Shown piece by piece: positions 19,624 through 20,127 of a DNA stretch of 39,384 nucleotides. A program made the position numbers and the translations under genes. The stretch spans positions 1 to 39,384 of the IMG/VR virus record IMGVR_UViG_3300025000_000231. The stretch is one strand, 5' to 3'. The stretch's first letter is position 1. Every line of letters begins with the position of its first letter. The notes beneath the pieces are model-generated. The model had not been told where the DNA came from, searched no databases, and worked only from the letters and a program-made list of their open reading frames with translations. This DNA comes from a virus.

Positions 19624-20127
19624 TTACTCCCGTAACTCACGATCTAAATCCAGGATAGCCGCGCCGTTCCCGTCTGCCAGGCTAAAGCGGGTCATCCATT
19701 CGTCAAGGGTCTTGACTTCCTCGACTTGCTCCATCACGAAGTAGCGCATAAACTCGCACGTTTGCGGATCATCGCTTTCTTCGGCAAGAGCATAGAGCGC
19801 ATTGATACGCTCCGTTACCTGGTACTCGTGTTCGAGAGCGGCCAAAAAGCAAGCGCCGCCCGCGTCCATCGCTCCTGCCCATCCAGGAACCAGCGGAGCC
19901 GGTACAATGTCCAGAACGGGGCGCACGTTGCGATCTGCTAGGAAAGATGCAAATTTCTTTGCGTGCTCTCGCTCTTCACTGGCACGCTCGGACATGAACT
20001 TTGCAAAGCCGGTCAGATTGATGGTATCCAGGGCAGAAGCGAGAGCGTAATAGACATCAGCGCTGAACCGCTCGAAATTGAACTGGCGGATCATTTCGCC
20101 TTGTACCTGCATCGGCATTTCGATCAT
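19624..20127 (-). CDS. Ferritin (FtnA-type), phage-encoded
   Basis: 167 residues from ATG 20127, chosen because GGAGAG lies 8 nt upstream; the open frame extends 19 codons further into the leader. A four-helix ferritin fold is evident: FNFERFSADVYYALASAL, then ERASEEREHAKKF, LEHEYQVTERI and FVMEQVEEVKT, ending near ILDLDREL. Compared with E. coli FtnA as I remember it, all ferroxidase residues are there: E19, E52, H55 (numbers shifted +2), then E101, Q134, E137 (shifted +7 after a five-residue insertion). The third-site residues E51, E133 and E136 are also present. It should oxidise Fe(II) and store iron in a 24-mer cage. It is the first gene of the capsid operon behind its own promoter and hairpin leader, and is coupled to the protease gene. 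A ferritin in a phage head operon is unusual; host origin is likely but the gene is well integrated. Confidence 0.93.
   Translation of the reverse strand: MIEMPMQVQGEMIRQFNFERFSADVYYALASALDTINLTGFAKFMSERASEEREHAKKFASFLADRNVRPVLDIVPAPLVPGWAGAMDAGGACFLAALEHEYQVTERINALYALAEESDDPQTCEFMRYFVMEQVEEVKTLDEWMTRFSLADGNGAAILDLDRELRE

Follow-up and report, generated by a model that had tools for sequence, protein, structure and literature searches.

A ferritin gene at the front of a phage head operon and its recurrence beside head genes in other phages

Sequence comparisons place a gene for an intact ferritin with a full set of catalytic residues at the front of the head operon of an uncultivated phage, find a ferritin in the same slot in two of its relatives, and recover further ferritins beside the head genes of other phages. 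The window, i.e., the whole stretch of DNA analysed here, is a 39,384-base viral record with a terminase match (phrog_9, E=2e-43), and its terminase shares no more than about 28% identity with those of named phages. The terminase gene, an intein-interrupted portal gene, the protease-like gene, the scaffold gene and the capsid gene all lie on the minus strand. The preliminary description had read the ferritin as the first gene of a capsid operon, and the arrangement agrees with this, with a leader hairpin 5' of the ferritin gene and the order protease, scaffold, capsid after it. The genes of this region are as follows, in the direction of transcription (L numbers denote viral loci used for comparison).

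22814-23032, minus strand: small zinc-ribbon-like protein with homologues in L016 and L155; together with 23029-23472 the syntenic anchor on the far side of the insertion
21237-22628, minus strand: Ro60-like VWA protein (DUF2828/DUF7788; phrog_850, E=6e-122), part of the insertion that holds the ferritin gene
20836-21219, minus strand: membrane-anchored protein of 127 aa, a further inserted gene
20321-20845, minus strand: lipoprotein-like protein of 174 aa, a further inserted gene
19624-20127, minus strand: ferritin of 167 aa, from Pfam and PHROG matches, an AF2 model and Foldseek
17542-19620, minus strand: prohead-protease-like protein with an N-terminal 2H phosphoesterase-type domain and a C-terminal domain with conserved H604 and S648
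16807-17532, minus strand: probable scaffold protein, acidic and coiled, from position and homologues in L015-L017
15343-16794, minus strand: major capsid protein, judged by its position and by its conservation, with 36-64% identity to most of 31 viral loci

The protease-like gene is named from its position and from a His/Ser pair, of which H604 is conserved in 30 of 31 homologues and S648 in all 31, and its profile support is indirect: the L154 homologue matches phrog_18402 (8e-21), mainly over the 2H part.

The ferritin reading frame runs from an ATG at 20127 to a TAA at 19626-19624. Its product matches the Pfam ferritin family (PF00210, E=1e-26; 94 bits against a cut-off of 24.5) and also phrog_16594, a family of unknown function (E=1e-13), while its 57.6 bits against the NCBIfam FtnA equivalog fall below the cut-off of 178, so that it is not FtnA itself. 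In the AF2 model (mean pLDDT 93.1), five helices (residues 6-35, 39-65, 86-117, 121-151, and 155-166) form the four-helix bundle with a short fifth helix that is the hallmark of ferritins, and Foldseek aligned the model with Thermotoga and Archaeoglobus ferritins at a TM-score of ~0.9. The nearest named ferritins are cellular, and the closest solved relatives, from Pyrococcus and Thermotoga, are about 35-38% identical. Aligned with the Pyrococcus ferritin and E. coli FtnA, residues E19, Y26, E51, E52, H55, E101, E133, Q134, E136, and E137 are invariant, and the intra-subunit ferroxidase residues of FtnA (E17, E50, H53, E94, Q127, and E130) correspond to E19, E52, H55, E101, Q134, and E137 of the window protein. 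All ferroxidase and third-site residues listed in the preliminary description are thus present, with exact numbering, and its view that the gene is not a decayed insert is supported. GC content and codon use resemble those of the phage's other genes, and the protein carries no N-terminal extension. Judged by its sequence, the gene encodes a genuine non-heme ferritin that is predicted to be ferroxidase-competent. It is like the bacterial and archaeal ferritins (Pyrococcus furiosus, Thermotoga maritima, and E. coli FtnA; PF00210) in fold, length, ferroxidase centre and third iron site, but differs from the cellular proteins in its identity to them of at most about 38%, in a 5-residue insertion in the BC loop, and in being encoded by a phage, at the start of its head operon.

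Three related identities were ruled out. Dps proteins have no fifth helix and an inter-subunit site, whereas the window protein has the C-terminal helix 155-166 and a complete intra-subunit site. A bacterioferritin would have the ExxH ferroxidase motif in helix D, where the EQVEE of the window protein has E136 in place of the histidine. As for an EncFtn cargo protein, the window product is a five-helix protein that ends at its fifth helix, and its neighbours are phage head genes.

The leader of the operon contains the following elements.

20275-20300, minus strand: terminator-like hairpin 3' of the upstream lipoprotein-like gene
20240-20267, minus strand: candidate sigma-70-type promoter, TTGCAA-16-TAAAAT with a TG extension; weak, as 6% of shuffles equal it
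20203-20226, no strand assigned: palindrome TGTCAGT-N10-ACTGACA, a possible operator in the leader, read from the sequence
20154-20179, minus strand: terminator-like hairpin with an 11 bp stem and a TTTGTTTG tail, in the leader 26 nt 5' of the ferritin start
20138-20142, minus strand: AGGAG ribosome binding site of the ferritin gene, read from the sequence

The ribosome binding site noted previously is strong, but the promoter that had been reported with it did not hold up. The match at 20267-20240 does not exceed chance, as two such matches were found in the window against 2.0 expected, and the strong terminator-like hairpin at 20179-20154, a feature absent from the preliminary description, sits between it and the start codon. 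No statistically supported promoter was found in the window, phages of this capsid family do not generally have a sigma-70 promoter 5' of the head operon, and a search of the window against Rfam returned no known RNA. The unit of hairpin, T-tract, ribosome site and start codon, on the other hand, lies 5' of the head operon at 12 of 18 loci of the family, compared with 1 of 30 at the capsid gene, 0 of 18 at p147, 4 of 26 at the portal gene and 0 of 10 at the terminase gene (TerL). Where family loci have the hairpin and no ferritin, it precedes the protease gene; in all three ferritin carriers (the window, L155, and L171) it lies 19-26 nt 5' of the ferritin gene. As the ferritin gene lies between hairpin and protease in every carrier, it was apparently inserted behind the operon leader, as the first gene. 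On its other side it is coupled to the protease-like gene without an intervening terminator: a 3 nt gap, as described before, separates its stop codon from the ATG at 19620, and the GGGAG ribosome site of the protease-like gene overlaps that stop codon. Because there is no room for a promoter between the hairpin and the ferritin start codon, transcription must read through the hairpin. We infer that it would do so by attenuation or phage antitermination, a kind of control for which the lambda late operon offers a comparison; alternatively, the hairpin may terminate the upstream unit with leaky read-through or may stabilise the mRNA.

A search with the capsid protein, which was blind to ferritin, yielded 31 related loci, and about 33 phages have this capsid family. 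A ferritin profile run on the 31 loci detected exactly two ferritins, in L155 and L171, both just upstream of the protease gene. The same two were the only ones returned by a Pfam search of 23 whole records, and a three-member profile found no hidden ferritins in the other relatives. The same gene order, which the preliminary description had proposed to look for in related phages, therefore exists with ferritin in the window's slot. The L155 ferritin is 47% identical to that of the window and has an intact active site, with a 103-aa reading frame between it and the protease gene; the L171 ferritin is 34% identical, and the protease ATG follows one base past its stop codon. The three form one clade in the tree (100/98). 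About 30 relatives have no ferritin, which puts the gene in 3 of about 33. In one of them, L016, the genes that flank the insertion are adjacent and all four inserted genes are missing, ferritin included, so that the ferritin gene shows the absence from close relatives at the same site by which morons are recognised. In some relatives the slot 5' of the protease gene holds other, unrelated genes, and synteny with the related phages is continuous on both sides of the insertion.

The L171 copy departs from the other two.

L171:2947-3447: ferritin homologue that retains its fold and operon slot but lacks most ferroxidase residues

In window numbering, E51, E52, H55, E133, E136, and E137 are replaced by Q, K, Q, H, S, and V, respectively. 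The open frame is nevertheless intact, and the predicted five-helix fold (pLDDT 88.7) has a TM-score of about 0.9 to ferritins. Going by its sequence, the copy would be either decaying or a cage that is useful without ferroxidase activity; given the residues lost, and unless the gene is in decay, that activity is not what preserves it there.

Outside this family, a single-protein scan of viral and genome contigs found no close relative of the window ferritin, and alignments were needed. Ferritin alignments gave 72 loci in viral contigs; after removal of three FtnA-like genes in prophage flanks, at least 69 IMG/VR phage contigs besides the window were left with a ferritin, most often amid head, portal or packaging genes of unrelated phages. 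The phages were grouped by gene order and PHROG matches, and the counts are descriptive, as many contigs are near-copies. Group A (19 contigs) mostly shows the order terminase, portal, ferritin, scaffold, capsid, and its capsid proteins are about 36% identical to those of crAss-like phages. In group B (32 contigs) the ferritin gene lies 3' of a virion structural gene, and in one member, L101, a capsid gene of the group A family lies about 3.3 kb upstream of it. The ferritins of this crAss-related group (L085-L118) have variable N-terminal extensions of 25-45 aa with a short basic start, and such extensions are absent from the cellular ferritins compared. Group C (7 contigs) has the ferritin gene directly 5' of a head maturation protease gene (phrog_1028, E=5e-32 and 4e-35), followed by the capsid gene (phrog_752), which is the order of the window in an unrelated phage. 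The suggested search of viral contigs for ferritin next to head proteases thus succeeded, with ferritin directly 5' in the unrelated L084, L088, L119, L121, and L129. Furthermore, the isolated Chryseobacterium phage MA9V-3 (L153), whose capsid protein is 70% identical to that of L088, has the L088 order minus ferritin, with 6 nt between the flanking genes, a clean empty site. Group C phages also have a gene for a NUDIX-domain protein beside that of the head protease (2622-3326 in MA9V-3; homologues in L084, L088, L119, and L129), a further enzyme encoded in the head operon. Other placements are after the portal gene (L123), two genes 5' of it (L132), upstream of terminase and portal (L127 and L130), and between genes of the structural module (L034); in six contigs (L083, L086, L102, L125, L128, and L131) ferritin lies away from head genes.

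Public phage records, 50,697 in all, contained no convincing phage ferritin; a class that lives in uncultivated phages may have gone unnoticed for that reason. GenBank 'phage' records with ferritin (MT839617, MT838998, MT836766, MT838721, OR845001, and OR850087) look like bacterial DNA, and the neighbours in those examined are host genes, e.g., for thioredoxin reductase, aldolase, and phosphoglycerate mutase. Further ferritins, located at record ends in isolate prophages (L035-L039, L070, L071, and L074), cluster with FtnA and were excluded as genes of the host flanks.

Across 52 distinct phage ferritins, E19, Y26, E52, H55, E101, E133, Q134, and E137 are kept in every one, and E51 and E136 vary only to D. 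The search pattern partly demanded E133-E137, while E19, E52, H55, and E101 were in no search pattern; the L171 ferritin, found after this count and outside it, is the exception. In the tree, the ferritins of groups A, B, and C form a large phage-only clade near FtnA (99/96), and the window family falls with scattered others on the Pyrococcus/Thermotoga/Bacillota side (100/97). This split indicates that phages captured ferritin more than once and that its position next to head genes arose separately in different lineages. A tree had been proposed as the way to the gene's source; it gives the side on which the window family falls, but with a small cellular sample of 31 rows it does not name the donor.

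We lean, at about even confidence, towards a captured ferritin whose late expression accompanies that of the head genes and which would take up iron for storage and keep oxidative damage low while particles are assembled. Its gene, originally cellular, would have entered the late head-assembly operon at the junction of leader hairpin and protease gene. Transcription would start upstream and pass the hairpin late in infection, so that ferritin would be made together with the protease, scaffold and capsid proteins, co-expression setting its timing and high dose. The protein would form the cage of 24 subunits usual for ferritins and there oxidise Fe(II) and retain the iron, and Fenton damage to phage DNA and assembling proteins would be lowered while host iron homeostasis collapses. 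The occurrence of ferritin in head operons of unrelated phages suggests that iron control matters during particle production. Counting against storage are the roughly 30 relatives that manage without ferritin and the loss of the site in L171. The position 5' of the protease gene may be a convenience, since the slot also takes unrelated genes.

Several other readings have to be weighed against storage during assembly. The ferritin could be a component of the virion or procapsid, enclosed in the head or attached at portal or neck, with an iron core or iron buffering in the particle or at injection. We regard this as fairly unlikely. In its favour, unrelated phages repeatedly have ferritin as the immediate neighbour of portal, protease, scaffold or neck genes, and the group B extensions, with their basic start, could dock to a virion part; the window ferritin, however, has neither an extension nor the KHxxGxHNQKxHG motif that recurs in seven of the window's other proteins, and non-virion genes also occur in head operons. 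Host protection, iron supply and packaged cargo, put forward in the preliminary description, are candidate roles, and the lack of the motif speaks against cargo in this phage. Similarly doubtful is a broader proposal, that phage ferritins are a recurrent class tied to head morphogenesis, with the cage an integral part of assembly or of the particle in several phage groups that are not related, and a structural role that outlived the enzymatic one in some members such as L171. Less probable still is that the fold serves this phage family as an assembly aid (a cage, chaperone or scaffold partner) for which ferroxidase activity is optional: L171 keeps the frame, the predicted fold and the slot one base 5' of the protease gene with most ferroxidase residues gone, but it is a single broken copy, the window, L155 and all other examined phage ferritins keep the active site, and most relatives assemble without ferritin.

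We give a similarly low probability to a cargo gene, or moron, parked by chance in an insertion-tolerant slot, with an uninformative position and a small or conditional benefit. The patchy distribution, the unrelated genes in the relatives' slot, the three other inserted genes of the window and the six ferritins away from head genes all fit such a gene. Nevertheless, three divergent relatives (34-47% identity) share the same position, several ferritin lineages acquired a place next to head genes, and the catalytic residues are strongly conserved. By the preliminary description's own account, its interpretation would fall if the contig were misassembled or proved to be bacterial; this is very improbable and is already refuted by L155 and L171. 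Although the contig is uncultivated and its closest named ferritins are cellular, synteny continues on both sides, the same slot is occupied in L155 and L171 from other metagenomes, and GC content and codon use match.

The Ferrojan horse hypothesis links phage particles with iron, placing it in tail proteins, with no ferritin. We found no description of ferritin in phage head operons in the open-access papers searched; virus-encoded ferritin is already known, and what is apparently undescribed is the recurrent link to head genes. Occurring in several lineages, crAss-like phages included, head-operon ferritin makes active phage iron management during particle production directly testable. Dps is encoded near DNA metabolism genes in Lactobacillus phages (PMC6669764) and together with manganese catalase in 'Gratiaviridae' (PMC8008677), in both cases with a proposed role in protection from oxidative stress. 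These proteins share the ferritin superfamily with the window protein, which is instead a full five-helix ferritin in a head operon. Ferritin genes of giant viruses, suggested to regulate iron during virion production (PMC7136201), are likewise virus-encoded, but the viruses are eukaryotic and the part of that report considered here mentions no link to capsid genes. In encapsulin shells, the encapsulated ferritin EncFtn consists of two main helices and a targeting peptide (PMC5012862, PMC6668986). Both systems combine a ferritin-like protein with an HK97-fold shell; unlike EncFtn, the window has a classical ferritin, and the shell gene is that of the phage, with terminase, portal, protease and scaffold.

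Other features of the window were observed alongside. The gene of the 127-aa membrane protein overlaps that of the 174-aa lipoprotein-like protein (20321-21219), an arrangement that resembles a spanin pair. The 2H phosphoesterase (LigT-like) domain at residues 50-190 of the protein encoded at 17542-19620 has weak similarity to anti-CBASS Acb1 (E=0.005). The portal-like gene (26630-29302) is split by an intein with a LAGLIDADG homing endonuclease, and the homologues of relatives align on both sides and are intein-less. A KHxxGxH[NS]QxxHG motif (e.g., KHRQGQHNQKTHGNRM) is common to seven window proteins, encoded on the minus strand at 4645-5436, 7072-7449, 11209-12660, 12501-13184, 17542-19620, 23605-25440, and 25981-26856, and related phages have other repeated motifs (GHAGRPGKRGGS in L016 and GHSGRPGKHGGS in L155); the repeated motif is possibly a head-targeting or processing tag. 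The regions 7451-11000 and 13168-15076, 3' of the capsid gene, were read by eye as encoding glycosyltransferases, a sulfotransferase and a methyltransferase, and glycosyltransferase-like homologues come after the capsid gene in L015-L017 as well.
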